DNA of 35,706 nucleotides from Granulicella sp. (GTDB taxonomy: Bacteria; Acidobacteriota; Terriglobia; Terriglobales; Acidobacteriaceae): contig DAHWOF010000053.1 of assembly GCA_027335345.1 (NCBI GenBank), forward strand, positions 1 through 35,706. The letters are read 5' to 3'. Under the pieces are notes generated by a model, which did no database searches, was not told the origin of the DNA, and saw only the letters and a list, made by a program, of their open reading frames with translations. Shown here piece by piece: positions 305 through 25,239 of the stretch (the first letter of the stretch is position 1; each line of letters opens with the position of its first letter). A program made the position numbers and the translations under genes.

Positions 305-324
305 CAATCGATAGTAATCGATCA
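305..324. promoter_or_regulatory. Putative operator A (CAATCG-N8-CGATCA) upstream of the kinase/isomerase genes
   Basis: caATCGATagtaATCGATca; same AATCG-N8-CGAT(T/C) arrangement as the site near 11648 and related to the site near 3033. Confidence 0.5.
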
Positions 325-410
325 TAGCATGACGGGGATATCTCAGCTCATCTTTAGCTGATTCTCAATATAGCATAAACGGTCGGTGGCGCAGCGGAGG
401 CAAGCCTCAG

Positions 411-1649
411 ATGACGGAGCGCAACATCTTGGTGGTGCAGGCGGGCGGTCCGACTCAGGTGCTGAACACCTCGCTGGCAGCCATTGTGGAAGAAGCTCGT
501 GGATCGGGGGCCTTTCAGCAAATCCTGGGCGCTCGCTCTGCCATGAGGGGGCTTGCCAAGGGACAAGTGGCGGACCTGACCGGTCTCTCCGCGCAGGATC
601 TTCGCGTCCTGCGAAGCACGCCTGGAGCAGCGCTGGGTGCGTCTCGCTATCAGTTGACGGTAGAGGACCTTACAGCGATACTGCAGCACCTGGAACGCCT
701 GCGGGTGACCGATCTGCTGCTGATTGGCGGAAATGGAACCATGCATGCCGCGAATCAACTCGCCAATCGGGTTCAGCAGGAGGGACGATTGATCCGGATC
801 GTCGGCGTGCCGAAGACGGTTGACAATGATCTGGAGAGGACGGACCGCTCCCCGGGCTATGCAAGCGCGGCCCGCTATATTGCTCAGGTAACGTGCGACC
901 TTGCTGCGGACGTGCGCTCCATGCCGCAGCCGGTCTCTATCCTTGAGACGATGGGGCGTAGCGTAGGATGGTTGGCGGCTGCGGCTTCAGCAACAAAAGG
1001 AGATGAGGCGGAAGCTCCTCATATCGTTCTTCTGCCGGAAAGACCCTTCGTGTTGGATCGTTTTTTGGGCCAGGTAGACGAGTGCGTTATGCGGCGCGGG
1101 TGGTGTGTGGTTGTAGTGGCGGAAGGTCTTCGGGATCCACAGGGGCGCATGGTCTATGAGGTAGAGGATCCGGCTCAGGCTGATGCGCTGAAACGATCCA
1201 TCACAGGCGGAGTCGCGCAGTACCTGGCCGACAGGGTGGCCCAGCATCTCCAGTTGCGCTGCCGAAGTGAGAAGCCCGGCCTGTTGGGGAGATCGTCGAT
1301 GCAGCATGTGGCTCGCCAGGATCGTGAGGACGCGGAGTTGGTAGGGCAAGCCGGGGTGCGAGCTCTCCTGGAGGGTGGCGCCGCGCGGATGGTATCGCTG
1401 CGACCACTGCAGAGCACGCAGTCAGGAGAATATGATCTTGTGCCGCTGATTGAGGTTGCGGGCAGGGAGCGTCCAATTCCTGGCGAGTGGATTCAAGATG
1501 GCGATGTTCCGCTTGCCGCGCCATTTTTCGAGTACATCCGACCGCTGATCGGCCAGTTGGGCTCACACCCTCAGATCACATTGCCGGATTATCCGCCAAG
1601 CTTTCGGGAGACCGCTTCCGAAGAAGAGAGGAAACATGTCATCCAATAG
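411..1649 (+). CDS. 6-phosphofructokinase (PfkA)-family sugar kinase; candidate 6-deoxy-6-sulfofructose kinase
   Basis: PFK motifs LLLIGGNGTMHAANQL, GVPKTVDNDL, ILETMGRSVGWLA, PGLLGRSSM; stop overlaps the next gene. Confidence 0.8.
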   Translation: MTERNILVVQAGGPTQVLNTSLAAIVEEARGSGAFQQILGARSAMRGLAKGQVADLTGLSAQDLRVLRSTPGAALGASRYQLTVEDLTAILQHLERLRVTDLLLIGGNGTMHAANQLANRVQQEGRLIRIVGVPKTVDNDLERTDRSPGYASAARYIAQVTCDLAADVRSMPQPVSILETMGRSVGWLAAAASATKGDEAEAPHIVLLPERPFVLDRFLGQVDECVMRRGWCVVVVAEGLRDPQGRMVYEVEDPAQADALKRSITGGVAQYLADRVAQHLQLRCRSEKPGLLGRSSMQHVARQDREDAELVGQAGVRALLEGGAARMVSLRPLQSTQSGEYDLVPLIEVAGRERPIPGEWIQDGDVPLAAPFFEYIRPLIGQLGSHPQITLPDYPPSFRETASEEERKHVIQ

Positions 1650-3006
1650 CGAAGCTCGGAAGGGCGTTCGTCTAGGCGTTATTTCTGTGGGCCGCAAGCG
1701 CCCGGGATTTGACCAGGAGTGGAATCAGATAATGACGGCCCGCTGCCTGGAGAGGTTGGAGAAGTTTGGCTACTCCGCGATGCGAATCGAAGAGCCAGTG
1801 GTCGACGAGATGACGACCGTAGCAGCTCTGGAGGAGGTTCAGCGGGCAGGGTGCGAGGCGCTTCTGCTGCTGCAGCCCTCGATTGCCCATGGACAACTGG
1901 CCCTTACAGTGGCCCAGCGATGGTCTGATCCGGTGATTCTCTGGGCGACTCCGGAACGGCCTGGCGATGGGAAGGTGAGCTCCTGTTCGCTGGTGGGGCA
2001 GCATCTCTGGGCCTCGTCTCTGCGGCAGGCAGGACATCCCTTTGAATTTGTCTATGGCGATCCCGATGACAGCGCTGCGCGTGAGGAGTTGGCGAGGGCG
2101 GTCACGCTGGCGCGCGCGGCCTTTCGCCTTCGCCGTAGCCGTGTCGGTCTGGTGGGGACGCACGTTCCGGGTTTCATTGATCTGGCGGTAGAGCCGTTTC
2201 TGCTGCGTCAAACGGTCGGCGCCCAGCTTTGTCCGCTCAGCCTGCCGCAGTTTATTGAGCGCGTCCGAGAGCTACCTGAGCAAGCTGTTCTCCGCGATGT
2301 CCAGAAGGTGCAGGAGATAAAGTTGCCTCTGCGCGGCGTGGTGGCCGAGGATCTGACGATCAACTCGCGCTACTACCTGGCGATGCGAGAGCTGATGGAA
2401 GAGGAGAGGCTGGATGCTCTGGCCATCCAATGCTGGCCTGAACTGCCGAACCTGCTTGGGCAGTGGCCGTATCTCGCTGTTTCGCGGCTAAGCACTGAGG
2501 GACGCGCCGTCGCCATCGAAGGCGATGTGGATGGGGCCCTGAGCAGTCTGATCAGTCTTCTGATTGGGGCTGGGCCTGGATTTCTGACCGACTGGCTGGA
2601 ACACGACCAGAACTCGATCTTCTTCTGGCACCCCGGTATGGCTCCCATGGATATGTGCGACGGCCCTGGGTGCGATGGGGCTCCCGCGCTGGCGCCCCAC
2701 TTCAATATCGCCAAGCCGCTGGTGGTAGATGGCCGTATCCGAACGAACGAGCCTGTGACGGTTCTGCGTCTGTGGCGCTGCGATAATCGCTACCATCTTA
2801 CGGCGCTGGAAGGCCATACCATCGAGCCACGCCGCAAGCTTACGGGTAATACCGCTCTGGTCCAGATCCCGGACGTCGCCGTTCCTCCCTGGTTTGATCG
2901 TTTGCTGCATGCAGGGTTGCCGCACCACGTGCTGGTCTCCTTTGGAACCCATGGCGAAACTTTGCGCCGGCTAGCCAGATTGCTGGGAATTTCATGGTGG
3001 CAGTGA
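1636..3006 (+). CDS. L-fucose/L-arabinose isomerase-like protein; candidate sulfoquinovose isomerase
   Basis: 456 aa protein with overall FucI-like features (e.g. HFNIAKPLVVDGRIRTNEPVTVLRLWRC); start overlaps the kinase gene by 14 bp. Confidence 0.65.
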   Translation: MSSNSEARKGVRLGVISVGRKRPGFDQEWNQIMTARCLERLEKFGYSAMRIEEPVVDEMTTVAALEEVQRAGCEALLLLQPSIAHGQLALTVAQRWSDPVILWATPERPGDGKVSSCSLVGQHLWASSLRQAGHPFEFVYGDPDDSAAREELARAVTLARAAFRLRRSRVGLVGTHVPGFIDLAVEPFLLRQTVGAQLCPLSLPQFIERVRELPEQAVLRDVQKVQEIKLPLRGVVAEDLTINSRYYLAMRELMEEERLDALAIQCWPELPNLLGQWPYLAVSRLSTEGRAVAIEGDVDGALSSLISLLIGAGPGFLTDWLEHDQNSIFFWHPGMAPMDMCDGPGCDGAPALAPHFNIAKPLVVDGRIRTNEPVTVLRLWRCDNRYHLTALEGHTIEPRRKLTGNTALVQIPDVAVPPWFDRLLHAGLPHHVLVSFGTHGETLRRLARLLGISWWQ

Positions 3007-3032
3007 TTTGGTAACAGCGGATTTATCAAGAT

Positions 3033-3056
3033 GATAGCGATTATCGATTGTGATAG
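3033..3056. promoter_or_regulatory. Putative operator B upstream of the GntR-ALDH-suyAB gene block
   Basis: gatagcgattATCGATtgtgatag; shares TATCGATTGT with the reverse complement of site A. Confidence 0.45.
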
Positions 3057-3149
3057 TTTATGACCAGTAGCTGATTGAAAAACGTGCCGAAGCAACAAGC
3101 GAGGCGTAGCGAAAAGATGAAGTGGCAAACAGAGCAACGCAATGGATCG

Positions 3150-3269
3150 GCTATTGCATTTTCAGTGTTGGCGGGCGCCCCGAAGAGGGCTTTCAGTGGC
3201 GTTTTCCTTGGGGAAAGCGCCCATCGAGGTCGAGGAGTCTGTCTACACTTACACTGAAAATGCTGTAGC
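3150..3269. repeat. Palindromic structured element, copy 1 (~120 bp)
   Basis: Ends GCTATTGCATTTTCAGTGT / ACACTGAAAATGCTGTAGC pair with two mismatches; internal hairpin GGCGTTTTCC-TTGG-GGAAAGCGCC; collinear with copy 2 at 24047-24164. Confidence 0.75.
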
Positions 3270-3365
3270 GTCTTGGACTCCGCTTCTTGATCAGCTTCCA
3301 AGACCAGAGCCTGACTGCTCTTCATTGCGCAAGTCCGCAATCAGCCGAAAGGAAAGGGAGGCCCA

Positions 3366-4019
3366 ATGCCTGCACGTGTAGCGCGCCATCATGTTCGTCA
3401 AGAGATCCAGCGCCGAATTCTGTCTGGGGAATCGAAGCCCGGGGAGCGTCTCAGCCAGCAGAGCCTGGCTCGGGAACTGGGAGTAGCGCAGGGTACGGTT
3501 CGCGAATCTCTGTTTGAACTACAGAGGCTTGGTCTGGTCGAATCGGTGGATCAGTTGGGAGTGTTTGTCGGGAGCCTGGATGCCAATCGCATCTGCCAAG
3601 CCTATCAGGTTCGCGAAGCGCTGGAGGGATTGGCTGCCCGTCTGGGTTGTGGCAATGTGGCTCCTGCCGACATCGTCACCTTGCGAGAGATGGCCGATGA
3701 GATCTATCAACTGGCCAGGAAGGGCAAGGAAGAGGCGATGGGCCGGCTGGATCGCGATTTCCATTTGCATATCACGGAGTTATCGCGAAACAAGATTCTG
3801 ACGCGCCTGGCGGAGACGTATCGCGTCTTGGGCATGATGGTGCGCGCTTCGCGCGAGCCACGAACGATCCACGATGAACACCTGGCGATCATCACCGCAA
3901 TTGAGAAGAACCAACCGGATAACGCGGAGCGATTGGCCCGGCATCACGTGGCGGAGGCGGCCAAGATGATCGATTCGCAGGCGCGTCAAGGAAAGTTTGT
4001 TCCTAAATGGGTGGACTGA
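3366..4019 (+). CDS. GntR family transcriptional regulator (FadR/FCD type)
   Basis: N-terminal wHTH (VRQEIQRRILSGESKPGERLSQQSLARELGVAQGTVRESLFELQRLGLVE) plus FCD-type C-terminus; GGGAGG RBS. Confidence 0.9.
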   Translation: MPARVARHHVRQEIQRRILSGESKPGERLSQQSLARELGVAQGTVRESLFELQRLGLVESVDQLGVFVGSLDANRICQAYQVREALEGLAARLGCGNVAPADIVTLREMADEIYQLARKGKEEAMGRLDRDFHLHITELSRNKILTRLAETYRVLGMMVRASREPRTIHDEHLAIITAIEKNQPDNAERLARHHVAEAAKMIDSQARQGKFVPKWVD

Positions 4020-4035
4020 AGGAGAGAGGGCCGAG

Positions 4036-5478
4036 ATGGAGCAGAAACCGGACGAGGTGCGCGGGTCTTATGTGAACGGGCATTGGATCGTCACCGCGGA
4101 TGTCGCCGACGTGATCAATCCTGCCACAGGCGAGGCGTTTGCGCGGGTCTCGCGGATCACGCGGGATCAGGTGGCTATGGCCCTTGAGGATGCGGATCGG
4201 GCCCTCCCCTCATGGCGAGCGCTGAATGCGAAGGTGAGAGGAGCTTATCTTCACCGAATTGCGGACGAGCTGGCTCGCCGGCGGGACGAGATTGCCCGCA
4301 CAATTACGCTGGAGAATGGCAAGCCGCTCGCGCAAAGCCGCGGAGAGGTGGCCATGGCGGAAGAGCACCTGCGCTGGTTTGCTGAAGAGGGAAAGCGGGT
4401 CTATGGGCGCATCATTCCGCATCAGACCGACGGCCGCCGCAACCTGGTCGTTCGGACTCCCATTGGCGTCGTTGGCGCCATCTCTCCGTGGAACTTTCCG
4501 TTGGTGCTGGCCGTGCGCAAGGTGGCGCCAGCGCTGGCGGCGGGCTGCCCTGTGGTGTTGAAGCCCTCGATGCAGACCCCACTTTGCGCCATCGCCTTTG
4601 CGGAGTGCGTGGAGAGCGCCGGCGTTCCCCCTGGCGCCTTTCAGTTAGTGCTGGGCAATGCAAGGGCGATCTCCGAAGAATTTCTCGCCAATTCCATCTG
4701 CCGCAAGATCACCTTCACCGGTTCCACCGAGGTGGGAAGGGAACTGATTGCTGGCGCGGCGCAAACAATCAAACCGCTCTCCCTGGAGCTGGGCGGACTG
4801 GCGCCCGTTCTGGTCTTTGAAGACTGCGATTTGGACGTGGCGGTTCGCGAGACGCTCATCGCCAAGTTCCGGAATACTGGTCAATCCTGCATTGCCGCCA
4901 ACCGCATTTACGTCCAACGTTCCATCCACGACAAGTTCGTCCAGCGTTTTGTGGATGGAGTAAAGAAGCTGAAGGCCTGCTCAGGGCTGGAGCCCGGTGC
5001 TGACATCGGTCCGTTGATCAACAAGCAGGCACTTGACGGGGCTCTGAACCAGATCGAGAACGCCGTCAGCCTGGGCGGGGAGCTGCTCTGCGGCGGGAAG
5101 CGCGCAGCCGGCGCCGGCGGCTTCTTTTTGGAGCCAACGGTTATCGATAACGCTCCCCAGGGCGCGATGTGCATGCGCGAGGAGACCTTTGCCCCGGTCG
5201 CACCGATTGCCGGTTTTGATACCGAAGAAGAGGCTATCGAGATGGCCAACCACTCGGAGTATGGCTTGAGCGCCTATGCCATGACGCGAGATGCGGCGCG
5301 GATCTTCCGGCTCGCCGAAAAAATTGAAGCCGGCACGCTGGGCATTAACGACGGCGCTCCCACCACCAGCCAGAGTCCCTTTGGCGGTGTGAAGCAGAGC
5401 GGATGGGGCCGCGAGCTGGGCAGCGAGGGTTTGGACGCGTTTCTCGAAACGAAGCACGTTTCCATCGGCGTCCTTTAA
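4036..5478 (+). CDS. NAD(P)-dependent aldehyde dehydrogenase (succinate-semialdehyde dehydrogenase/GabD-like); candidate sulfolactaldehyde dehydrogenase
   Basis: ALDH motifs GAISPWNFPL, FTGSTEVGRELI, LELGGLAP, NTGQSCIAANRIYV; ATG at 4036 preceded by GGAGAGAGGG is a better start than 3997. Confidence 0.9.
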   Translation: MEQKPDEVRGSYVNGHWIVTADVADVINPATGEAFARVSRITRDQVAMALEDADRALPSWRALNAKVRGAYLHRIADELARRRDEIARTITLENGKPLAQSRGEVAMAEEHLRWFAEEGKRVYGRIIPHQTDGRRNLVVRTPIGVVGAISPWNFPLVLAVRKVAPALAAGCPVVLKPSMQTPLCAIAFAECVESAGVPPGAFQLVLGNARAISEEFLANSICRKITFTGSTEVGRELIAGAAQTIKPLSLELGGLAPVLVFEDCDLDVAVRETLIAKFRNTGQSCIAANRIYVQRSIHDKFVQRFVDGVKKLKACSGLEPGADIGPLINKQALDGALNQIENAVSLGGELLCGGKRAAGAGGFFLEPTVIDNAPQGAMCMREETFAPVAPIAGFDTEEEAIEMANHSEYGLSAYAMTRDAARIFRLAEKIEAGTLGINDGAPTTSQSPFGGVKQSGWGRELGSEGLDAFLETKHVSIGVL

Positions 5479-5505
5479 AGCTCTTGAAAGGAGAAATCGA
5501 ACGCT

Positions 5506-5784
5506 ATGATTCATTTTCTTATTCACGATTCGGCGGATACGGTCGCAGTGGCCGTAACCGACCTTGCAGCCGGCGCCGAGTGCACTGGTCGGGATCTTTC
5601 GACCAACAAGACGCTCACCGCGAAGACGGCCGAGGCTATTCCGCTTGGGCATAAATTTGCGCTACGGGATTTTGCCGTCGGCGATACAGCAATTAAGTAT
5701 GGCTGCGAGATTGGCAAAGTCGTGCAGCCCATCCGCGCGGGACAGCACGTTCACGTGCATAACCTGAAGACGAAAAGGTGGTAG
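5506..5784 (+). CDS. suyA: UxaA-family small (SAF-domain) subunit; probable (2R)-sulfolactate sulfo-lyase alpha subunit
   Basis: 92 aa, IPLGHKFALRDFAVGDTAIKYGCEIGKVVQPIRAGQHVHVHNLKTKRW; immediately followed by the large subunit. Confidence 0.75.
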   Translation: MIHFLIHDSADTVAVAVTDLAAGAECTGRDLSTNKTLTAKTAEAIPLGHKFALRDFAVGDTAIKYGCEIGKVVQPIRAGQHVHVHNLKTKRW

Positions 5785-5787
5785 ATC

Positions 5788-6951
5788 ATGACAGACCGGA
5801 AGATTCACGCATTTCGACGCGAAAACGGGCGGGTGGGTGTCCGCAACCATGTCGTCATCCTGCCGGTGGACGATATCTCGAACGCCGCCTGCGAAGCAGT
5901 CGCCAATAATATCAAGGGGACGCTCGCTCTGCCGCACGCTTACGGCCGCCTGCAGTTTGGCGAAGATTTTGAGCTGTTCTTCCGCACGATGATTGGTATC
6001 GGCAGCAATCCGAACGTTGCGGCCGTGGTGGTGATCGGCATTGAGGCGGGTTGGACCAAGCGCATCGTGGATGGCATTGCGAAGACCGGCAAACCGGTGG
6101 AGGGCTTCTCGATCGAGGGCCATGGCGATATACGCACCATCGCCGATGCTTCCTACAAGGCGAAGGAGTTCGTGCAGTGGGCTTCGGAGCTGCAGCGCAC
6201 GGAGTGCAAGCTGAGTGAGCTTTATATCAGCGTAAAGTGCGGAGAGTCCGATACTACCACCGGCCTCGCCAGTTGCCCCACCGTCGGCAACGTTCTGGAC
6301 AAGCACTGCGCGCTGGGCGGGACAGCCTCCTTCGGTGAGACGACCGAGTTGACCGGAGCGGAGCATATCGTCGCCGCCAAAGCGGCCAATGAAGAGGTGC
6401 GCAAGCAGTTCATGGCGGCTTTCGAGGACTACACACGTCTGGTCTTCAGAGAAAAGACCAACGACTTGTCCGAGTCGCAGCCGACCAAAGGGAATATTGC
6501 CGGCGGCCTCTCAACCATTGAAGAGAAGGCGCTAGGCAACGTGGAAAAGCTAGGCAAGAAGACCAAGTTCATTGGGTGTCTCAAGCCCGCGGAAGCCCCG
6601 ACAAAATCCGGCATGTGGTTCATGGACACCTCCAGCGCCGCGGCGGAGGCAGTGACGCTGTGGGCTGCTTCGGGCGCGGTCGTGCATCTGTTTCCCACCG
6701 GTCAGGGCAACGTCATCGGCAACCCCATTGAGCCGGTTATCAAGCTATCGGGAAATCCCAAAACCGTCGCCACGATGAAGGAGCATATCGACCTGGATGT
6801 TGCGCCAATTTTGCAGGGCGAGATGACGCTCGACCAGGCCGGCGACGCTCTCATCGAGATGGTTGTTCGTACGGCAAACGGCAGGCTCACGGCGGCGGAG
6901 GCGCTCGGCCATCGCGAGTTTGTGATGACCAAACTCTATCGCAGCGCCTGA
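5788..6951 (+). CDS. suyB: UxaA-family large subunit; probable (2R)-sulfolactate sulfo-lyase beta subunit
   Basis: 387 aa; [122 protein letters not shown], which resemble SuyB. Confidence 0.75.
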
Positions 6952-7023
6952 TCTGTCTCTCTCAACGCGCAGAGGCGCAGTTCCGTGGGCTGTGCCTCTG
7001 CCAAGGATCTCGGGCAGGAATGT

Positions 7024-8094
7024 ATGGTTCGTTATCGAAAAGAAACGCTGGAGCGCCTTGTCGCGCGGCTTGCCGTTGGCGTTGGGGTTCCTGAGCAGGA
7101 TGCGGCTCTGTTTGCGCGTGCGCTGGTTGATGCCGATCTGCATGGCGTCTCTACGCACGGAGTCTCGCGCCTCAGTATCTATTTGCGCCGCATAAAGGAG
7201 GGGTTGATAGATCCCGCAGCGCGGCTCACCGCGGATCGAGGAGCCGGCAGCGTGTTGGCGCTGGATGCAGGCAATGGACTGGGGCAGGTACAGGCGCGGA
7301 AGGCGCTCGATCGTCTGATCCCTCTAGCGCGACAGAACGGGGTAGCCGCGGCCACCATCCGCAACTCGCAGCACTTTGGCGCGCTGTCCTGGTACTGCAA
7401 CGCCGCGGCGGAGCAGGGCATGGTGCTGCTGGCGATGACCAACTGTGAACCGGCCATGTCGCCTGCGGGCGGCTACGAGCCTTTCTTCGGCACCAATCCC
7501 ATTGCCGCATCTTTCCCCACTCGCCGGGGTTTTCCGGTGAAGATCGATCTAGCTACCTCGATCGTGGCCCGTGGCAACATCATTGCCGCGCAAAGGCGCA
7601 ATCAGCCTATTCCAGAGGGCTGGGCGCTTGATCCAGAAGGAAAACCCACCACGGATGCCCAGGCAGCCTTGTTGGGCACGGTTCTCACCATGGCTGGCCA
7701 CAAGGGTTATGCTCTGGCCCTGATGGTGGAGTTATTCAGCGGAGTTCTCTCCGGAGCGGCTATTGGCTCGCAGGTAGGCTCGATGTATAAGAACCTGGAT
7801 CGCCCACAGAATGTGGGCCATTTCTTCTGCCTGTTCGACATCGCCGCCTTCCTGGATTACGAAGCGTATCTGCAGCGCATGGACGAGACGATCGACCAGA
7901 TCAAGTCCTCGCAGAGACGCAGTGGAGTGGACGAGATTCTGATTCCCGGAGAGCGCTCCGCACGCATCGCTGAGCAAAACCAGGCGCGGGGTATTCCCCT
8001 TGCACCGGAGACCCTCGCCGAGATTGAACAGTGGTGCCGGCGATTGAAGATTGCATTTGACTGTCCCGAGGTGACCGCATGCCCGACATCCTGA
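7024..8094 (+). CDS. Ldh_2 (malate/L-lactate/sulfolactate) family dehydrogenase; candidate ComC-type (R)-sulfolactate dehydrogenase
   Basis: DADLHGVSTHGVSRL, GLGQVQARKALDRLIPLARQNGVAAATIRNSQHFGALSWYC, FFGTNPIAASFP, MAGHKGYALALMVELFSGVLSGA; likely ATG 7024. Confidence 0.85.
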   Translation: MVRYRKETLERLVARLAVGVGVPEQDAALFARALVDADLHGVSTHGVSRLSIYLRRIKEGLIDPAARLTADRGAGSVLALDAGNGLGQVQARKALDRLIPLARQNGVAAATIRNSQHFGALSWYCNAAAEQGMVLLAMTNCEPAMSPAGGYEPFFGTNPIAASFPTRRGFPVKIDLATSIVARGNIIAAQRRNQPIPEGWALDPEGKPTTDAQAALLGTVLTMAGHKGYALALMVELFSGVLSGAAIGSQVGSMYKNLDRPQNVGHFFCLFDIAAFLDYEAYLQRMDETIDQIKSSQRRSGVDEILIPGERSARIAEQNQARGIPLAPETLAEIEQWCRRLKIAFDCPEVTACPTS

Positions 8095-9056
8095 TCTCCG
8101 AAGCTATCGAAGGGGCGGCAGTGGACGAGCTCCGCAGCCGTTTTGATGTGCTCTATCTGCCGGACGCCTGGAAGTCGCCTCAGCTTCTGGCTGAGAAGGT
8201 CAGGGACTGCCGTGCGCTCATCGTGCGTAATCAGACGCCGGTAACGGCGCAGTTGATGGATGCGGCCCCCGAGCTACTGGTGATCGGGCGCGCCGGAGTA
8301 GGACTGGACAATGTGGATGTGGATTACGCTCGCCAGGCCGGCATAGTGGTAGCCTTCACGCCGGATCAGAATGCGATCAGCGTCGCAGAACTTGCCATCG
8401 GCCTCATGATCTCGCTGGTACGCTTCATCCCCGCCGCCGACCGCGATACCAAGGCAGGGAACTGGAACCGCCGCCGCTTTGTCGGCTCAGAGCTCTATGG
8501 CAAGACGCTGGGCATTGTTGGCGCCGGCAAAATTGGTTATCTTACCGCTCGGCGCGCTCGGGCTTTTGGCATGAGTGTGCTGGCCTGCGACCCATTCCTC
8601 AGCCCGGATAATGTTCTGCTCGCCGATCTTCAGGCCGAGTTGGTGACGCTGGAGGAGGTGTTTGCACGAGCGGATATTGTCTCCTGCCATCTGCCGGCTT
8701 CGCCGCAGACATCGGGGCTTCTAAACTCCTCCTGCTTTGAAAGGATGAAGCCCGGCTCTTACTTCATCAATACGTCGCGCGGGAAGGTGGTAAATGAGCC
8801 TGATCTGTTGTCCGCACTCAAGTCCGGAAGGCTAGCTGGTGTGGCGCTGGATGTTCGCGCCACCGAGCCACCGCAGCAGGGCGAGCTGGAGTCGATGTCC
8901 AATGTGATTCTGATGCCACACATTGGGGCCTGGACGCACGAGGCCCAGGATCGGGTGACCGTGGCCATCTGCGAGGACATCACTCGAGCGCTGGAGGGTA
9001 GACCGGTGGTGAGCGCGGTCCATCAGGCAACGCCCCAGCGCATGACCGCGCGGTAG
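8079..9056 (+). CDS. D-2-hydroxyacid (phosphoglycerate-type) dehydrogenase; candidate SlcC-type (S)-sulfolactate dehydrogenase
   Basis: ALIVRNQTPVTAQLMDAAPELLVIGRAGVGLDNVDVDYAR, GKTLGIVGAGKIGYLTARRARAFGMSVLACDP, MKPGSYFINTSRGKVVNEPDLLSALKSGRLAGVALDV; overlaps the previous gene. Confidence 0.85.
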   Translation: MPDILISEAIEGAAVDELRSRFDVLYLPDAWKSPQLLAEKVRDCRALIVRNQTPVTAQLMDAAPELLVIGRAGVGLDNVDVDYARQAGIVVAFTPDQNAISVAELAIGLMISLVRFIPAADRDTKAGNWNRRRFVGSELYGKTLGIVGAGKIGYLTARRARAFGMSVLACDPFLSPDNVLLADLQAELVTLEEVFARADIVSCHLPASPQTSGLLNSSCFERMKPGSYFINTSRGKVVNEPDLLSALKSGRLAGVALDVRATEPPQQGELESMSNVILMPHIGAWTHEAQDRVTVAICEDITRALEGRPVVSAVHQATPQRMTAR

Positions 9057-9123
9057 GCGTCACTGAAAGAAAGACGCTTCGGCGGCCACGAGGCGCCGGC
9101 AGAAAATTGGAGAGAAGATGATT

Positions 9124-10143
9124 ATGACCTCAGTTCTCACTCAGGGAAAGATTGCCGGTCTCAACGCCGTAGCCAATCCGCGAGGAGTCATTGCGGCGGC
9201 TGCACTGGACCAGCGCGGGTTGCTGAAAAAGATGATGGCAAAGGAGATGCGAGCCGGCGAACCGACCGATGCCATGGTCTCCGAGTTCAAGGAGATTGTT
9301 ACCGAGGCGCTGACGCATCACGCATCGGCAATCCTGCTGGATGTAGAGTATGGCCTGCCGGCCCTCGCGCATTGCAACGGGAAAGGCGCGATGCTGGCCT
9401 ACGAAAAGTCCGGCTATGATTTTACGGCTCCGGAGTTTTTACCCAGCCTGACGGAAGGATGGTCGGTGTTGCGGTTGAGCGAAGCGGGAGCCGCCGCGGT
9501 TAAGATTCTGCTCTTCTATTCGCCGTTTGAAGATGCCTGGGTGAATCAACAGAAGAAGGCTTGGGTGGAGCGAATTGGCGCCGAGTGCCGTGCGCTCGAT
9601 ATGCCCTTGTTTTTGGAGTTGCTCGCTTATGGCGTGGGCGAAGAGGAAAGCTCCCTGAGCTATGCAAGGCGCAAGCCGGAGATTGTGATTCGCTCCATCG
9701 AAGAGTTCACCGCGGATCGATACGGGGCCGACGTGCTCAAACTGGAGTTCCCGGTTCGCATGCAGTCGGTTCCTGGCATGAAGGTCTACACAGGTCAGCA
9801 AGCCTATTCTCGCGCTGAAGCTGCTGAGTACTTCCGGAGAGCCGCGGCCGCCTCCACCAAGCCGTTCGTATATCTCTCCGCGGGTGTTCCCAACAGCGCG
9901 TTCATTGAAGGGTTGGAGTTCGCGCTTGAAAGTGGCGTTCAGTTTCATGGAGTCCTGTGTGGCCGCGCTACCTGGCAAGGCGGCGTGCCCATCTTCGTGC
10001 AGCAAGGCGCTACGGCGCTGCGTGCGTGGCTGGAGACGGAGGGCGCGGAAAATATCTGCAAGGTGAACAAAGTGCTTGAGGCCGCGACTCCGTGGCAGGA
10101 GAAGTTTGGCGTCAAGCTGGCCTCATCCTCGCAGGTTCTTTGA
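9124..10143 (+). CDS. LacD/YihT-family class I aldolase (tagatose-1,6-bisphosphate aldolase-like); candidate sulfofructose-1-phosphate aldolase
   Basis: AAALDQRGLLKKMM, ASAILLDVEYGLPAL, KILLFYSPFEDAWVNQQKKAWVERIGAECRALDMPLFLELL, GADVLKLEFPV (likely Schiff-base Lys), VYLSAGVPNSAFIEGLEFA, GVLCGRATWQGGV. Confidence 0.85.
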   Translation: MTSVLTQGKIAGLNAVANPRGVIAAAALDQRGLLKKMMAKEMRAGEPTDAMVSEFKEIVTEALTHHASAILLDVEYGLPALAHCNGKGAMLAYEKSGYDFTAPEFLPSLTEGWSVLRLSEAGAAAVKILLFYSPFEDAWVNQQKKAWVERIGAECRALDMPLFLELLAYGVGEEESSLSYARRKPEIVIRSIEEFTADRYGADVLKLEFPVRMQSVPGMKVYTGQQAYSRAEAAEYFRRAAAASTKPFVYLSAGVPNSAFIEGLEFALESGVQFHGVLCGRATWQGGVPIFVQQGATALRAWLETEGAENICKVNKVLEAATPWQEKFGVKLASSSQVL

Positions 10144-10172
10144 AACATCTCTCGGCTTCAGGAGTATTCGAC

Positions 10173-11453
10173 TCAGGCTTGCGCTGCTTCGTTCCGAGCC
10201 ATCGTCCGGTACTTCCGCGCCAGAACAAACAGCGCAACGGTTCCAAGCAAGGGCATCAGCGCCGCCATCATAAAGACAGACCGATAGGAGCCATGATCCA
10301 CCAAATAACCGGTGAGTAGCGGAAACAGCAGGCCGGTCAGGCCGCTGGCAACGCCGCTCATTCCGGTCGCCCGTCCCACCTCCGCCCCGGTAAAGAGATC
10401 TGTGATTGCCCCGAACATATTCACGGAGAGGAAGTTGTGTCCGAAGATCGCGACGCTGATCATCGTGAGCGCCAGCGTGGGACCCGCCACGAACGGCACC
10501 AAAAAGCTGGCCAGGCACAGGCCGCTGCTGAAGTACATGGTGAGTTTGCGAACCCGGGGCGGATTCGCTCCGCGCCGCTGCAGCCAACCGGCTGCCCACC
10601 CTCCGGCAACGCCTCCAACACTGCCCAGGAAGAAGGGAATCCAGGAGAGGCTGCCGATCTGCGTCATCGTCATGTGCCGTGCGCTATAGAGATAGCTAGG
10701 TAGCCAGTACCAGTAAAACTGGATCACGGGACCGATGAAGGCGCGGCAGAGCACCACTGCCCAAGTAGACGAGTTGCTCAGCAGCGCCTTCAAAGGTATC
10801 TTCGGCGTCTCGCTGTCCTTCAACTCCTTGTTTCGGTGACTTGGGTAGGTGAGCCACCATAGCGCCACCCAGATAAATCCGAGCAGCGCGGGAACGAAAA
10901 ATGCAGCGCGGAACCCGTAGCGCTGCGCCAGATAGACGATCAGCGGTGGGGCAATCACGGCGCCGACCACGCTACCACTGTTGAAGATGCCTATGGCGAA
11001 GGTGCGTTCCTTCTCTTCAAAGGTCTCGGATACGACCTTCATCCCGCCGGAGAAGTTGCCGCACTCGGTTCCGCCCATCCCCAGTCGCGAAAGGCCGAGC
11101 TGCATCCCGGAGCGAACAAACGCCTGCGAGCCTGTGCACATTGACCACCAGCAGACCGCGGCGCACATCCCGATGCGGCATCCCCACTGATCCATCAACT
11201 GTCCCATGGGCAATTCGCCGCTCATCATGCCGAATTGAAAGGCGGCAACGATTCGCCCGTAGGCTTCGTCGGAGAGGTGGAACGCCGCCTTGATCAGCGG
11301 CGCCAACACGGACACAGTCTGACGATCGATGATGTTGATCACCGTGATCGCAAAGAGCAGCGAGAGAATCGTCCAGCGTTGGACGTTCGCCTGAGGAGGA
11401 GGCGCCGTAAGTTCTTCGACCGGGGTTCTGGTTGCCAAGCTGCAAGCTTCCAT
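10173..11453 (-). CDS. MFS transporter (anion:cation symporter/hexuronate-transporter-like)
   Basis: Hydrophobic multi-TM protein; INIIDRQTVSVLAPLIK, GQLMDQWGCRIGM, GMGGTECGNFSGGMKVVSETFEEKERTFAIGIFNSGSVVGAVIAPPLIVYLAQRYGFRAAFF. Confidence 0.85.
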   Translation of the reverse strand: MEACSLATRTPVEELTAPPPQANVQRWTILSLLFAITVINIIDRQTVSVLAPLIKAAFHLSDEAYGRIVAAFQFGMMSGELPMGQLMDQWGCRIGMCAAVCWWSMCTGSQAFVRSGMQLGLSRLGMGGTECGNFSGGMKVVSETFEEKERTFAIGIFNSGSVVGAVIAPPLIVYLAQRYGFRAAFFVPALLGFIWVALWWLTYPSHRNKELKDSETPKIPLKALLSNSSTWAVVLCRAFIGPVIQFYWYWLPSYLYSARHMTMTQIGSLSWIPFFLGSVGGVAGGWAAGWLQRRGANPPRVRKLTMYFSSGLCLASFLVPFVAGPTLALTMISVAIFGHNFLSVNMFGAITDLFTGAEVGRATGMSGVASGLTGLLFPLLTGYLVDHGSYRSVFMMAALMPLLGTVALFVLARKYRTMARNEAAQA

Positions 11454-11647
11454 TCTGATTGATCTGCCGGCAGGATGTTCTTCGTCGGAATAGCCATCCG
11501 GCCAGGCGCGTTTGTTGCTTCGAGAAGGTTACGTCAAATGCGGCATGGCGTGCTCCCCATTTGTGCCTGGCTGCAAATACCTGCTGTGCTCGTGCTCCTG
11601 TTTGGGCAGGAGTTTTAGGCGCCCTCGACTTAGTCTCTACCTTACGT

Positions 11648-11669
11648 ATAATCGATTGGAAACGATTAT
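11648..11669. promoter_or_regulatory. Putative operator C upstream of the MFS gene
   Basis: Perfect inverted repeat ATAATCG-ATTGGAAA-CGATTAT. Confidence 0.55.
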
Positions 11670-12102: not shown

Positions 12103-14307
12103 ATGGATCGTAGAACGTTTAACAAGGTGGCTGGTTTTACCGCGTTGGCTGCTCTGGCCGATATTGACAACGCCAGTGTGGCGCAGGACGCTGCCGCCGG
12201 CGGCGAGGTTGTGCTTGAAGACGCGGAGGTTATCCTTGCATTCGATCCTGCTTCCGGCGCGCTCACCCGGATGCAACGCAAGTCAACCATGTGGTCCATT
12301 GAGCGGCGCCCCGCCCTTGGCGCCTCCTTTCGCATGATGGTTCCCACGCCGGACCGCAGCGACAACTTTATCGTCGGGCACAAGCAACGCGCCAAGCGTG
12401 TGGAGAAGATCGCTCGCAACCAGGTTCAGATCGAATGGACAGACTTGCTCAGTGAGCATGCAGGCGTGCTGCCGATTACCTTCACGGCCACCGTTACGCT
12501 CCAAAGCGGGGATCTCACGTTTGATGGTGTGATTCACAATCAGTCGGATCTGAGCGTCGATACGATCGAGTATCCCTGCTTTGGGGATCTGACCCCGCCC
12601 ACGCTCAACGCACCGATGCTGGCTCATTCCATGTTTGTGGGAGCCTTGCAGACCCAGGAACTCTATCCAAGCTTTTCGAACAACCTTGGCTATTGGGGAG
12701 ATCGCTATCCCACCAAGATCATCAACACCGGCGCGTTTCGAAGCCAGTTTTGCCTGATTCAATCGCCGGAGCAGGGCATCTATGTGGTCATGAAAGACCC
12801 CGAGATCCGTTATTTCCTGCAGTTTATCTTTGCCCAACTTCCGGGCGTAGTGGATGCGAACACCAACGCCGTTCCCCGGACCGATGACATCTCCGGAACT
12901 CCGGTGCATCTTGAATTCCGTCTGTGCCACTTCGTCTTCATGCACCCCAAATCCTCCTTCCATCTCGCGCCCATCGTGGTGCGCCCCTATTCGGGCGACT
13001 GGCACGCCGGCCTGGATATCTACAAGCAGTGGCGCGCCACATGGTTCGGCAAGCCGCATATCCCCGACTGGGTGAAAGAAGTCCACTCTTGGCAGCAACT
13101 TCGCGTAGATGGCGCGGAGCAGGACTACCTGGTGCCCTATACGGATCTTGTGCAGTACGGCAAGGAGTGCGCCGAGAACGGCGTCAAGGCTATCCAAGTG
13201 GTCGGCTGGGCCTACGGCGGCCAGGACGGAGGCGATCCGGACCTTTCCACAGACCCGGGCCTTGGCACGTGGGAGCAACTCCACGACGCGATCGCACAGA
13301 TTCAGGCCATGGGCGTCAAGATCATCCTGTTTGGCAAGCCCATCTTCGCCGCCATCTCCAGGACCTGGTATAGGGAGGTTCTTTACAAGTACGAGTGCAC
13401 CGATCCCTATGGAGATAAGTACGAGTCCGGCGGCTACAGCTACACTACGCCGGTTCAGCTTGCCGGAATCAACAACCGCCGGCGCGCCATTATGGATGTC
13501 TGTTGCCAGGAGTACCGCGACATCGCCACGCACGAGTTCGAGAAGACGGTAAAGCTGGGCGCCGCCGGCTGGCTCTTCGACGAGGTGATGCAGCACAACG
13601 GCGTCATCTATAACTTCAGCGCCGATCATGGCTACAACCCTCCCGGCTACCTGTTCAACGCCGATATCCCGCTCGCCAGGCAGTTTCGCCAGGCCGCAGT
13701 CAACACCGACCCAAAATTCTTCCTGCCTGGCGGAGCCACCAACGGAGAGGATTTTCTCTTTTCCGGAGAAGGTCCGGGAGACTGGCTGATGCCATACTAT
13801 GTGCTCGGCTATTACCGGATCGATTGGGGTACGGTGCATGCTCTACGTTACATTGATCCCCAAGCCCCGCTCATGGCGGCTGTCCGCGGCTTCAATGCCC
13901 GGGATGAGATCAACCTGTGCCTGCTCTACCGTTACATCATGGAGTACGAGCCGTACAATTTCAAAGGGCACATCACAGATTTTCCGCTTACCCTGGAGTA
14001 TGGCAAAAAGGTCGATGCCCTGCGCAAGAAGTACCAGGCTTGGGTGTGGGACGCCGAGTTCCGCGACAATCTGGGAGCCAACGTACCTGCCGATGGCAAG
14101 GTCCGGTACACGGTATTTCGGCGTTCAGACGGCAAGCGTGCTGTTATTGTCGCTAGTCTCGAACAGACCAAGTCCGTGACCGTTGCCGTGGATCTTCCCA
14201 ACGCGGGCAAGCTTGTCTTCGCCACTCCCGAAGAACCAGACGCCAAGCCCTTCACCGGCTCTCTCCGGATCCCACCACGTTCAGCGGCAATAATGATGGA
14301 GTCGTAG
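12103..14307 (+). CDS. Putative exported TIM-barrel glycoside hydrolase (DUF6259-like)
   Basis: Tat-like N-terminus MDRRTFNKVAGFTALAALAD; N-terminal beta-rich region then WVKEVHSWQQLRVDG..., GVKAIQVVGWAYGGQDGGDPDLSTDPGLGTWEQLHDAIAQIQAMGVKIILFGKP, GAAGWLFDEVMQHN. Confidence 0.65.
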   Translation: MDRRTFNKVAGFTALAALADIDNASVAQDAAAGGEVVLEDAEVILAFDPASGALTRMQRKSTMWSIERRPALGASFRMMVPTPDRSDNFIVGHKQRAKRVEKIARNQVQIEWTDLLSEHAGVLPITFTATVTLQSGDLTFDGVIHNQSDLSVDTIEYPCFGDLTPPTLNAPMLAHSMFVGALQTQELYPSFSNNLGYWGDRYPTKIINTGAFRSQFCLIQSPEQGIYVVMKDPEIRYFLQFIFAQLPGVVDANTNAVPRTDDISGTPVHLEFRLCHFVFMHPKSSFHLAPIVVRPYSGDWHAGLDIYKQWRATWFGKPHIPDWVKEVHSWQQLRVDGAEQDYLVPYTDLVQYGKECAENGVKAIQVVGWAYGGQDGGDPDLSTDPGLGTWEQLHDAIAQIQAMGVKIILFGKPIFAAISRTWYREVLYKYECTDPYGDKYESGGYSYTTPVQLAGINNRRRAIMDVCCQEYRDIATHEFEKTVKLGAAGWLFDEVMQHNGVIYNFSADHGYNPPGYLFNADIPLARQFRQAAVNTDPKFFLPGGATNGEDFLFSGEGPGDWLMPYYVLGYYRIDWGTVHALRYIDPQAPLMAAVRGFNARDEINLCLLYRYIMEYEPYNFKGHITDFPLTLEYGKKVDALRKKYQAWVWDAEFRDNLGANVPADGKVRYTVFRRSDGKRAVIVASLEQTKSVTVAVDLPNAGKLVFATPEEPDAKPFTGSLRIPPRSAAIMMES

Positions 14308-15972: not shown

Positions 15973-16050
15973 ATTCAAAACATACCTGACTCAAAATCGT
16001 TGACACGTTCCGATTGGGGCTGCCATTCTGATTCCGGAGCACGCCCAAGC

Positions 16051-18789
16051 ATGCTGCGCAGGAACTTTCTCAAACTTGCAGGCGCGACCACCTTGTGCGG
16101 GCTTGCGTCAGTGGCACAGGCTGTTCCACTCCGCCGCGTGACGATCCTTTTGGACTCCGGCAACGCCGATGCTTCGGCCGCGTCGGTTCGGCGGGCCGCA
16201 GATAAGCTGCGCGCGGCGCTTGCGGGCAAGGGCGTTGATTGCGTGATTGTGACTGCTGCGCCTCGGGCACACGGGGCCAGCCTGACGGTGGTTGTGGCAG
16301 CGGACGGATCGGAGCTGGCCACTGGATTCACCGACGCGACGGAGGCAAAGGGCCCCGAAGGCCTGCGGCTGATTTCCGGTCATCTGGGGAATCAGCCCGC
16401 CCTGCTGGTCTCCGCCGGCGACCCGCGCGGATTCATCTATGGATTGCTCGAACTGGCCGAACGGGTCGAAGTTCTGCCCAATCCGGCTGCGGCGCTGCAT
16501 GTCGCGGAGCCCGTCGAGGAGCAGCCTGCGAACGAAATCCGCTGCGTGAGCCGCTACTTCTGCAGCGAAATCGAAGACAGGCCCTGGTACTACGACAAGA
16601 ATTTCTGGCCAGCGTATCTCGATACTCTGATTGCCTGCCGATTCAATCGCTTCTGCATGGCGTATGGGCTCGAGTACGACTTTCCGAAGGGCGTGACGGA
16701 CGACTATCTACTCCTGCCGTATCCGTACATGCTGGAAGTGCCTGGTTACAACGTGCGGGTGATGCAGCTTCGCTCGCCGGAAGGAAATCCGCTGCCTCAG
16801 CCCGTCGAAATCACCATGGAGGAGCGCGCGCGCAACCTCGATGCCTTGAAGTTTATCGCGGCCGAAACGAGCAAGCGCGGCCTGCACTTTCAGCTTGGAT
16901 TGTGGACTCATGCCTATGCCTGGACAGACAGTCCCGCCGCCTTTCACCGTATCGAGGGACTGACGCCGGAGACGCACGGCACGTACTGCCGCGATGCGCT
17001 GGCCATGCTGCTGAAGGAGTGTCCTGAGATTCAGGGACTGACCCTGCGGGTGCATGGCGAGAGCGGCATTCCCGAGGGCAGCTACTCGTTTTGGAAGACG
17101 CTGTTTGAAGCCATTTCGGGATCTGGCCGCACGATCGAGATCGACATGCACGCCAAGGGCGTGGACCAGAAGATGATCGACATTGCGGTGGCGACTGGGA
17201 TGCCGGTGCGGCTCAGCGCCAAGTATTCGGCCGAGCACCAGAGTCTTGGCTATCAGCAGGCGGATATTCGCGCACTGGAAATTCCCAACCCCAACCACCA
17301 CGACGACATGCGCCTGTTCAGCCTGAGCGGCGGCGCACGGCTGTTTACGCGTTATGGGTACGCGGATTTCCTGCAGGAAGGCAGCAAGGCGAAGGTCCTA
17401 TTCCGGCTCTGGCCGGGAACGCAGCGGCATCTGCTCTGCGCCGATCCGGAGATGGCGGCTGCCTACGGGCGCACGTCGCATTTTTGTGGAGCCCTGGGCA
17501 TCGACCTGATGGAGCCGCTCACCTTCAAGGGCCGCGAGGGCTCGGGCCATCCGGGCAGCCGCTGCGCCTATGCGGATGCGTCGCTAAACCCCGATGCCGA
17601 CTGGAAGAAATTCGAATATTACTACCGAGTGTGGGGCCGCAAGCTGTACGATCCCGGCGCCGATCTCGACATCACGCGCCGCTATCTGCGCGGTCTGTTC
17701 GGGCGCGGGGCCGAGCCGGTCGAAGCGGCATGCGCCAACTCCAGCCGTATTCTGGCGCTCATCACTTCAGCGCATCTGCCTTCGGCGTCGAATCATGCCT
17801 TCTGGCCGGAGATCTACACCAACATGCCCATCGTGCTGGGCAGCGAACCGTCGCCCTACGATGACACACCCAAGCCGCGCTGCTGGGCGACGGTCAGTCC
17901 GCTGGACCCGCAGCTCTTCTCGAGCATCGCCGAGTACGTACAGGACCTGCTCGCAGGGCAAGCGAATCCCAAGTACTCGCCGGTCGAGGTGGCGCAGTGG
18001 ATCGAAGACTTCGTTGCCGTTTCCAGCCGCGCCCTGACGCGGGCGCGAGCCACTTCTTCCACAACGGCCTCGCCTGAATTCCGACGCATCGAGGAAGATG
18101 TGCTGATTCAAAACGGTCTGGGCGCGTTCTTCGCGGCCAAGCTGCGCAGCGGCGTCCTGTATGAAATCTTTCAGCAGACCGGCGATGCGAGCGCTGGCAA
18201 GCGGGCTCTCGAACTATACAAGAAGGCGCGAACTGCATGGGCAACGATGTCCGCGCGCGCCAATCGAGTCTACGTCGCTGATGTCAGTTATGGCCGGATC
18301 CCGATGCGCCGCGGTCACTGGTCCGATCGCATCCCCGCCATCGATATCGACCTCGCCGCCATGGAGCAGAAGGTAGAGACAACGCCGCGCTCCTCGGCTT
18401 CCAATCCGCAGACGACCAAGGCGATTGCCGCCGCCAGCGGGCGGCCTCTCCGGCCCAGCAATTCCTGGACCCATACATCGCCGGAGAGCTTTGTCCCCGG
18501 CCAACCGCTGGGGCTAGTGTTAAGCTTGGGCAGCGGAACCGCCGCACCCAGCGCGGTCCGGCTCTGGTATCGACATGTGGATCAGGGCGAGCGCTGGAGC
18601 TCGATGCCGATGCAGGGCGGCGGTGGCAGGTACAGCGCTGCGATTCCAGGCGATTACACACAATCGCCGTTCTCGCTGGAATATTACTTCGAACCCGAAC
18701 TTGGATCCGGGGCAGCATGGCTGGCACCAGCGTTCAACACAACCCTCTCCAATCAGCCCTATTACACGGTTACGAAACGCAGTGCGTAG
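16051..18789 (+). CDS. Putative exported glycoside hydrolase with an alpha-glucuronidase-like N-terminal domain
   Basis: Tat signal MLRRNFLKLAGATTLCGLASVAQA; FIYGLLELAERV; TIM-barrel-like NFWPAYLDTLIACRFNRFCMAYGLEYDFPKG and LTLRVHGESGIPEGSYSFWKTLFEAI; start 16051 preferred over 16000. Confidence 0.6.
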   Translation: MLRRNFLKLAGATTLCGLASVAQAVPLRRVTILLDSGNADASAASVRRAADKLRAALAGKGVDCVIVTAAPRAHGASLTVVVAADGSELATGFTDATEAKGPEGLRLISGHLGNQPALLVSAGDPRGFIYGLLELAERVEVLPNPAAALHVAEPVEEQPANEIRCVSRYFCSEIEDRPWYYDKNFWPAYLDTLIACRFNRFCMAYGLEYDFPKGVTDDYLLLPYPYMLEVPGYNVRVMQLRSPEGNPLPQPVEITMEERARNLDALKFIAAETSKRGLHFQLGLWTHAYAWTDSPAAFHRIEGLTPETHGTYCRDALAMLLKECPEIQGLTLRVHGESGIPEGSYSFWKTLFEAISGSGRTIEIDMHAKGVDQKMIDIAVATGMPVRLSAKYSAEHQSLGYQQADIRALEIPNPNHHDDMRLFSLSGGARLFTRYGYADFLQEGSKAKVLFRLWPGTQRHLLCADPEMAAAYGRTSHFCGALGIDLMEPLTFKGREGSGHPGSRCAYADASLNPDADWKKFEYYYRVWGRKLYDPGADLDITRRYLRGLFGRGAEPVEAACANSSRILALITSAHLPSASNHAFWPEIYTNMPIVLGSEPSPYDDTPKPRCWATVSPLDPQLFSSIAEYVQDLLAGQANPKYSPVEVAQWIEDFVAVSSRALTRARATSSTTASPEFRRIEEDVLIQNGLGAFFAAKLRSGVLYEIFQQTGDASAGKRALELYKKARTAWATMSARANRVYVADVSYGRIPMRRGHWSDRIPAIDIDLAAMEQKVETTPRSSASNPQTTKAIAAASGRPLRPSNSWTHTSPESFVPGQPLGLVLSLGSGTAAPSAVRLWYRHVDQGERWSSMPMQGGGGRYSAAIPGDYTQSPFSLEYYFEPELGSGAAWLAPAFNTTLSNQPYYTVTKRSA

Positions 18790-24174: not shown

Positions 24175-25239
24175 TCATACGTTCACCGCCTCCAGCAGCA
24201 CCTCAGCAAACTTCTTTCCGGCGCGAGCCTTGTACGCTCCCTTGTGAAACGCATAGCCCGCAATCAGTGGAAGCGCGATCGTGGCTTCGGCGTACACCAT
24301 CTGTTCAAAGGTCAGGTCCACCTTGCCCCAGCTCGAAGCTTCCTTCAGCGTCGACCCGCTCAGCGCTCCATCGCGAACATCAGCCACGGTAATCTGGATG
24401 GCATACTTGTGCATGGACGCTTCGATGCCGAGCACATCAGCGGCCACCACGATATCCTGGGCAAAGTTCTTCGGAACCCCTCCGCCGATCATCAGCAGTC
24501 CCGTCGTCGGGTTGGCGATCTTCAACTGGGTCAGCTCATAGAAATCCTTGGCGGAATCAATCGAAACCACAGGCTTGCCACGGCGCGCATGCTGGTGAGC
24601 CACCAGTCCGAACCCGGCGGAGCAGTCCGAGAAGGCTGGGCAAAAGATAGGAACACCCTTCTCAAAACAGGCCAGCACAATCGAGTCGTTCTGTCCGTCA
24701 GCAGGCGTCCGTCCTTGCTCCTTCAAATACCGCCCCATCTCCTGGATGAACTCCCGCGAGGAGTAGGGCCGAGGCTGGAGCCCATTGGCAATCTTCTCTG
24801 TGGTCTCGTCGCAGATTCTCAGTTGCTCCTCATCGATGAACGTGTCATAGATGCGGTCGATCATCAACTCACGCAGCTCGGCGTCACCGGCGCCATACTT
24901 GTACTCATCGCCGGCGATATAGTGCCGGAATCCCAGCGCCTCAAAAAAGTCCTGGTCTACGATATTGGCGCCCGTCGAGACGATCGCATCGACCATGTTG
25001 TTTCTTACCAGATCCACAATCACCTTCTGCAGCCCGGCTGAGATCAGGCTCCCGGCCAGGCAGAGGATTACTCCGCAATCGGTATCCTGCAGCATCTTCT
25101 CGTAGATTTGGGCCGCCCGCGCCAGATCGCGCGAGCTGTACGCCATGGACGCCATGGCGTCCACCAGCGCCACTACGTTGTGCTGCTTGATGTCGATGTG
25201 CTGAATCGGGTGCGTCAGAAGTTCATTTTTGGTCGTCAT
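24175..25239 (-). CDS. Deoxyhypusine synthase-family protein
   Basis: DAMASMAYSSRDLARAAQIYEKMLQDTDCGVILCLAGSLISAGLQKVIVDLV, VSTGANIVDQDFFEALG, CPAFSDCSAGFGL, DGALSGSTLKEASSWGKV (catalytic-Lys region retained). Confidence 0.9.
   Translation of the reverse strand: MTTKNELLTHPIQHIDIKQHNVVALVDAMASMAYSSRDLARAAQIYEKMLQDTDCGVILCLAGSLISAGLQKVIVDLVRNNMVDAIVSTGANIVDQDFFEALGFRHYIAGDEYKYGAGDAELRELMIDRIYDTFIDEEQLRICDETTEKIANGLQPRPYSSREFIQEMGRYLKEQGRTPADGQNDSIVLACFEKGVPIFCPAFSDCSAGFGLVAHQHARRGKPVVSIDSAKDFYELTQLKIANPTTGLLMIGGGVPKNFAQDIVVAADVLGIEASMHKYAIQITVADVRDGALSGSTLKEASSWGKVDLTFEQMVYAEATIALPLIAGYAFHKGAYKARAGKKFAEVLLEAVNV

Follow-up and report, generated by a model that had tools for sequence, protein, structure and literature searches.

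A conserved acidobacterial locus predicted to join an EMP-type sulfosugar pathway to sulfolactate desulfonation in Granulicella sp.

Several bacterial routes for the degradation of sulfosugars have been described. In the sulfo-EMP2 (Embden-Meyerhof-Parnas) pathway of Bacillus urumqiensis and Megamonas (SqvD-SqiK-SqiA), a FucI-like isomerase and a PF00365 kinase act on sulfoquinovose, and extended transaldolase-type (sulfo-TAL) clusters with SuyAB have been predicted in Thermotogae and Chloroflexi (PMC9594981). In Paracoccus wurundjeri, a sulfofucose Entner-Doudoroff (ED) pathway in tandem with SlcC/ComC/SuyAB was shown in 2025, and the presence of both halves in one bacterium was called unusual (PMC12421959). 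According to a 2018 report, the peatland Acidobacteria SbA4 and SbA5 carry suyAB together with dsrAB for sulfite reduction only, and SbA5 also comC and slcC (PMC6018796). No report of acidobacterial sulfoglycolysis was found in the open-access literature, subscription papers lying mostly outside this coverage. Here we describe a locus on a 35,706-nucleotide stretch of Granulicella sp. DNA (the window), which is contig C144 of the draft genome G000 (3.65 Mb, approximately 85% complete, 233 contigs). Its gene content suggests that it probably encodes the complete catabolism of a 6-deoxy-6-sulfohexose, either sulfoquinovose or its C4 epimer sulfofucose.

As the preliminary description of this DNA had proposed, all the open reading frames (ORFs) it named were found contiguously and in chemical order between 411 and 11453, and their families, assigned with Pfam and NCBIfam, together with conserved synteny, place an EMP-type upper half and a SlcC/ComC/SuyAB lower half in a single locus (Table 1). 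In the proposed pathway, a major facilitator superfamily (MFS) transporter would import the anionic sulfosugar, the isomerase would convert the sulfoaldose to a sulfoketose, and the PF00365 kinase would form the sulfoketose-1-phosphate, which the LacD aldolase would cleave into dihydroxyacetone phosphate (DHAP) and (S)-sulfolactaldehyde (SLA). The aldehyde dehydrogenase (ALDH) would oxidize (S)-SLA to (S)-sulfolactate, SlcC and ComC would invert it via sulfopyruvate to (R)-sulfolactate, and SuyAB would split the latter into pyruvate and sulfite. We infer each substrate and reaction in this scheme, as well as the uptake role of the MFS protein.

The upper half resembles sulfo-EMP2 in its FucI-type isomerase, its kinase of the PF00365 family, the use of an aldolase and an ALDH predicted to oxidize SLA. 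It differs in having a LacD class I aldolase (PF01791) instead of the class II enzyme SqiA (PF01116), an isomerase that is just distantly SftI-like, an attached SuyAB half and a host among the Acidobacteriota rather than the Firmicutes. The isomerase and kinase families, which the preliminary description had set against E. coli YihS and YihV as marks of a distinct variant, form the known sulfo-EMP2 pairing, which leaves the aldolase as the one distinguishing enzyme of the upper half. With the E. coli sulfo-EMP genes (yihSTUVQ) the locus shares the predicted ketose, 1-phosphate and cleavage products DHAP and SLA, and both have class I aldolases belonging to one Pfam family. However, its isomerase and kinase belong to other families, its aldolase is LacD and not YihT, SLA would be oxidized and not reduced, no orthologs of YihS, YihV, or YihT are encoded in the locus, and no YihQ was found. 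Like P. wurundjeri, the organism would take a sulfosugar to pyruvate and sulfite by the same lower half, but the upper half there is of the oxidative ED type, while the one here is of the EMP type with a kinase and an ALDH. The extended sulfo-TAL clusters likewise join a sulfosugar half to SuyAB and differ by a transaldolase replacing kinase and aldolase. Both halves in one organism had been put forward as distinctive; tandem SuyAB pathways have already been predicted (Thermotogae and Chloroflexi) or shown (Paracoccus), and what stands is the EMP-type combination. SbA4 and SbA5 share with the present organism acidobacterial suyAB and a sulfite-only Dsr, whereas a sulfosugar upper half is not mentioned in the accessible part of that report (PMC6018796).

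The large sulfo-lyase subunit, SuyB, shares 72% identity with a protein encoded on a Methylobacterium oryzae plasmid, next to genes for SuyA, TauE, GntR, a molybdopterin oxidoreductase, a putative sulfate exporter and dehydrogenases of the SlcC and ComC types, and 69% with the protein beside hpsN/hpsO in the hpsN-hpsO-suyAB locus of Cupriavidus pinatubonensis. SuyA and SuyB share the Pfam families GD_AH and SAF with altronate/galactarate dehydratases and could in principle be a split enzyme of that kind, in a locus degrading a hexuronate or aldarate. This is very improbable, as the identity of SuyB to other sampled UxaA-family proteins is below 40%, ComC- and SlcC-type genes are adjacent, and in a maximum-likelihood tree including E. 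coli UxaA and GarD, SuyB clades with Methylobacterium and Cupriavidus SuyB at an ultrafast bootstrap (UFBoot) support of 100. Placement among the dehydratases, the result that would speak against the sulfo-lyase named in the preliminary description, was thus looked for and not found. The separate small SAF subunit adjoining SuyB, with sulfolactate dehydrogenase-type genes nearby, is the typical SuyAB arrangement, and SuyA is 49-52% identical to its Methylobacterium and Cupriavidus counterparts. On the tree and the identities, SuyB is firmly placed in the sulfolactate sulfo-lyase clade, and its identification as an altronate/galactarate dehydratase is rejected. The ComC-type protein is related to the solved sulfolactate dehydrogenase 2x06 and has the L-sulfolactate dehydrogenase model NF040650 as its best NCBIfam match, yet scores under the cut-off. 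The SlcC-type protein and the corresponding protein of the Methylobacterium suyAB locus are 39% identical.

In the synteny survey of relatives (tblastn), diverged Acidobacteriaceae retain the eight-gene core kinase-isomerase-GntR-ALDH-SuyA-SuyB-ComC-SlcC on contigs of sufficient length, with identities outside the closest sister group of 47-64% for the phosphofructokinase (PFK) family kinase and 54-79% for the isomerase. LacD and MFS also lie inside the block in most loci; one locus (L038) has no GntR beside it, and in G004 the block is spread over approximately 30 kb of a single contig. Two gene pairs of the window overlap, kinase/isomerase and ComC/SlcC. Between the window and locus L033 the ratio of non-synonymous to synonymous substitution rates (dN/dS) is 0.01-0.17 for eight genes (0.011 for the GntR gene), indicating purifying selection. 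Among 396 genomes sampled across Acidobacteriota, the isomerase, counted at an identity of at least 58%, occurs in five (G000, G004, G019, G442, and G517). Exactly these five also have a SuyB of the window's clade (at least 88% identity); three others (G105, G175, and G430) have SuyB at 67-73% and no isomerase. The chance that all five isomerase genomes fall among the eight SuyB genomes of 396 is approximately 7 × 10−10 if genomes of one family are treated as independent.

A dyad pattern, TAATCGATTGNNNNCGATTA, has five matches at three places in the whole window, against 0.15 expected in shuffles, and each place lies in a different one of the three intergenic regions of the locus. As the pattern was built from the very sites on which it was then counted, its recurrence in relatives is the stronger evidence: the dyad upstream of the kinase recurs in L032, L033 and, more weakly, L034. 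In L032 and L034, LacI-family genes lie close to the kinase, so either LacI or GntR may bind the candidate operators, and control of the genes through this shared operator would fall to GntR, a LacI-type factor or both. We conclude that the locus genes belong together as one conserved unit, beyond chance.

Table 1. Features of the predicted sulfosugar locus and their positions in the window.
Feature	Position	Strand	Basis
Candidate operator dyad, 5' of kinase-isomerase unit	305-324	no strand	CAATCGATAGTAATCGATCA; pattern match, recurs in relatives
PF00365 kinase, PPi-PFK subfamily; predicted sulfoketose 1-kinase	411-1649	+	Pfam/NCBIfam
FucI/AraA-fold aldose-ketose isomerase; predicted sulfohexose isomerase	1636-3006	+	NCBIfam profile, structure model
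Candidate operator, isomerase-GntR intergenic	3041-3060	no strand	identical GATAGCGATTATCGATTGTGATAG in L031 and L033
GntR/FCD transcriptional regulator	3366-4019	+	Pfam
ALDH; predicted SLA dehydrogenase, SlaB role	4036-5478	+	Pfam; Arg pair, shared with SSADH
SuyA, (R)-sulfolactate sulfo-lyase small subunit, SAF domain, 92 aa	5506-5784	+	Pfam, identity
SuyB, (R)-sulfolactate sulfo-lyase large subunit	5788-6951	+	tree, identity, neighbors of homologs
ComC-type (R)-sulfolactate dehydrogenase, Ldh_2 family	7024-8094	+	Pfam, NCBIfam best match
SlcC-type (S)-sulfolactate dehydrogenase, D-2-hydroxyacid dehydrogenase family	8079-9056	+	Pfam/NCBIfam
LacD-type class I aldolase; predicted sulfoketose-1-phosphate aldolase, to DHAP and SLA	9118-10143	+	Pfam/NCBIfam, LacD vs. 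YihT scores
MFS transporter; predicted anionic sulfosugar uptake	10173-11453	-	weak best match, galactonate-type anion symporter model
Candidate operator, MFS-DUF6259 intergenic	11649-11668	no strand	TAATCGATTGGAAACGATTA
Exported DUF6259-like protein, possible sulfosugar-releasing glycosidase; tentative locus member	12103-14307	+	weak Pfam similarity, context

The structure model of the isomerase (predicted local distance difference test, pLDDT, 71) resembles L-arabinose and L-fucose isomerases, the closest being L-arabinose isomerase, and the candidate metal ligands E295, D319, and H430/H431 are invariant across nine orthologs. The profile check against SftI/SqvD suggested in the preliminary description did not single the protein out as a specific ortholog: it scores 150 bits on the SftI profile (NF048012) against a cut-off of 700, and because acidobacterial paralogs in other contexts reach 140-149 bits, the score is evidence for the family and not for orthology. 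The kinase passes the NCBIfam cut-off of the pyrophosphate-dependent PFK (PPi-PFK) subfamily; its motif GGNG, invariant in 12 orthologs, has Gly where PPi enzymes have Asp (GGDD/GGGD), and the clade signature is GGNGT and PKT[VI]DND. We read the enzyme as probably using ATP. It is not the sole PFK of the genome, another being encoded at G000:C184, and therefore is probably dedicated to the locus. The aldolase had been described as LacD/YihT-like; with 295 bits to LacD, the tagatose-1,6-bisphosphate aldolase family, and 36 bits to YihT, the first part of this label stood and the second was ruled out. A second LacD paralog, 59% identical and with one in-frame TAG, is located at G000:C229:4873-5859. 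The ALDH has an Arg pair equivalent to Arg171/Arg289 of RlGabD, proposed to bind the sulfonate, a pair shared by succinate semialdehyde dehydrogenase (SSADH). Elsewhere, in G208 (L089:8525-12374), a distant isomerase paralog (25%) adjoins an 819-aa protein that is transketolase- or E1-like by eye, possibly a transketolase-type (sulfo-TK-like) cluster.

Several of these results weigh against complete sulfosugar catabolism. The assignment of the upper enzymes goes no further than the family, and the kinase, isomerase and LacD families mostly act on non-sulfonated sugars; isomerase paralogs match the SftI profile equally well; the best-scoring model for the ALDH is SSADH, and the Arg pair, which SSADH shares, is non-diagnostic; LacD is encoded away from the core in G025, G086, and G442; and the five co-occurring genomes belong to one family and so are not independent. 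It could be that only the lower half handles sulfonates, in the degradation of sulfolactate, and that kinase, isomerase and aldolase act on an ordinary sugar unconnected with it, as the general nature of the upper families, the occasional location of LacD in trans and the stand-alone suyAB loci of the acidobacteria G105, G175, and G430 would allow. We consider this quite unlikely, because kinase and isomerase keep their order with ALDH-SuyAB-ComC-SlcC across diverged lineages, the isomerase is seen solely in SuyB-positive genomes of the phylum survey, and the candidate operators are common to the locus.

As to the substrate of the predicted complete pathway, we give sulfoquinovose an even chance. 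It is much commoner in nature than sulfofucose (6-deoxy-6-sulfo-D-galactose), and the FucI-type SqvD acts on it. An EMP-type route for sulfofucose via sulfotagatose and sulfotagatose-1-phosphate is a serious alternative, though less likely. It would suit an aldolase of the tagatose-1,6-bisphosphate aldolase family, although LacD does not tell C4 epimers apart, and an isomerase modeled nearest to L-arabinose isomerase, a family that converts D-galactose to D-tagatose. Sulfofucose is also present in Thermoplasma acidophilum glycans, and galactosidase-family enzymes are encoded next to or close to the locus in several related lineages (GH42 in L036, L047, and L085; GH27 in L047; GH59 in L037; GH2 in L050 and L051), but GH42 and GH2 genes are abundant in acidobacterial genomes, and such proximity may arise by chance. 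No YihQ-like GH31 enzyme was found in the 12 genomes searched, which gave only low-identity generic GH31 matches; this would fit sulfofucose, but together with the lack of a recognizable mutarotase in the search for a YihQ-type sulfoquinovosidase it adds to the points against a sulfosugar pathway as a whole. Gfo/Idh, AP_endonuc_2, and DUF1080-like proteins are encoded near the locus in L035, L049, L083, and L038, and comparison of the Gfo/Idh neighbors with the PDB, run without an SqgA reference sequence, gave no recognizable match to SqgA, a GH188-like enzyme. The exported DUF6259-like protein, adjoining a candidate operator in the window, may be a novel sulfoglycosidase. Its structure model is uninformative (pLDDT 31), so the case for a glycosidase depends on context and a weak Pfam similarity. 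The protein recurs at L085:17160-19352 and L033:20347-21366, with homologs near the locus, on its contig, in G026 and G004.

The sulfite formed would have different fates in different lineages. G000 encodes, above the cut-offs, dsrA (553 bits), dsrB (517 bits), dsrC, dsrM, and dsrK, as well as cobA and a cobB-like gene, in a block at G000:C120:439-12424 (L101). aprA was not detected in this draft, and dsrAB with dsrC and dsrMK but no aprA is the pattern of sulfite-only respiration. An ORF of 83 aa at L101:10731-10982, DsrD-like by eye, matched no NCBIfam model. The same block is present in an independent sister metagenome-assembled genome (MAG), G003 (contig C153, L102), where dsrA, B, C, M, and K are syntenic and 93-100% identical and the GC content and tetranucleotide profile are similar. 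Overall, dsrA was found in 7 of 150 relatives, within the genus just in G000 and G003. No SorA-type sulfite dehydrogenase was found in G000, and neither G000 nor G003 yielded a protein of PF03601, which we take to be a putative sulfate-exporter family. PF03601 proteins occur in G004, G019, G442, and G517, a SorA-like protein in G086, and none of these three systems in G025 and G026. Across these nine draft genomes, there are apparently three lineage-specific fates of sulfite: reduction, export and oxidation. In G442 the PF03601 protein (L083:4518-5528) adjoins the locus.

In G000, sulfite would probably be handed to DsrAB, DsrC and DsrMK and reduced to sulfide. It is quite possible, if somewhat short of an even chance, that G000 and G003 break down a sulfosugar, perhaps sulfofucose, to DHAP, pyruvate and sulfite and respire their own sulfite to sulfide, so that the sulfosugar would serve as a source of both carbon and electron acceptor. 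Against this, the dsr genes lie on a different contig from the locus in a draft MAG of 233 contigs, and several locus-bearing relatives lacking dsr have PF03601 or SorA-like proteins. We therefore regard it as possible, though rather doubtful, that dsr reflects a binning error or that Dsr runs in the other direction, sulfite being exported or oxidized; the nearly identical block of similar composition in G003, its lack of PF03601 and the undetected aprA speak for respiration.

Other genes lie close by. An M24/creatinase-like protein stands beside the locus in five related lineages (L036:2367-3524, L047:4226-5368, L051:11860-12975, L083:17524-18666, and L084:13931-15064) and was not seen in the window. 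The window further encodes a protein of 929 aa (16000-18789) that matches no Pfam family and may carry an export signal, and a bacterial deoxyhypusine synthase family protein (24175-25239).

What appears new is the hybrid of an EMP-type upper half using LacD with SlcC/ComC/SuyAB, in a phylum new to such pathways and possibly ending in sulfide. The presence of dsrABCMK without detected aprA in G000 and its sister MAG suggests that conversion of sulfosugar to sulfide may take place in one cell. As yihQ, a common marker gene, was not found in the carriers, marker surveys would miss the locus. If the proposed pathway is correct, one cell would do the two-step job of E. coli and Desulfovibrio or of Agathobacter and Bilophila, and the sulfosugar sulfur cycle would gain a lineage that inhabits acid soils and mine waters.

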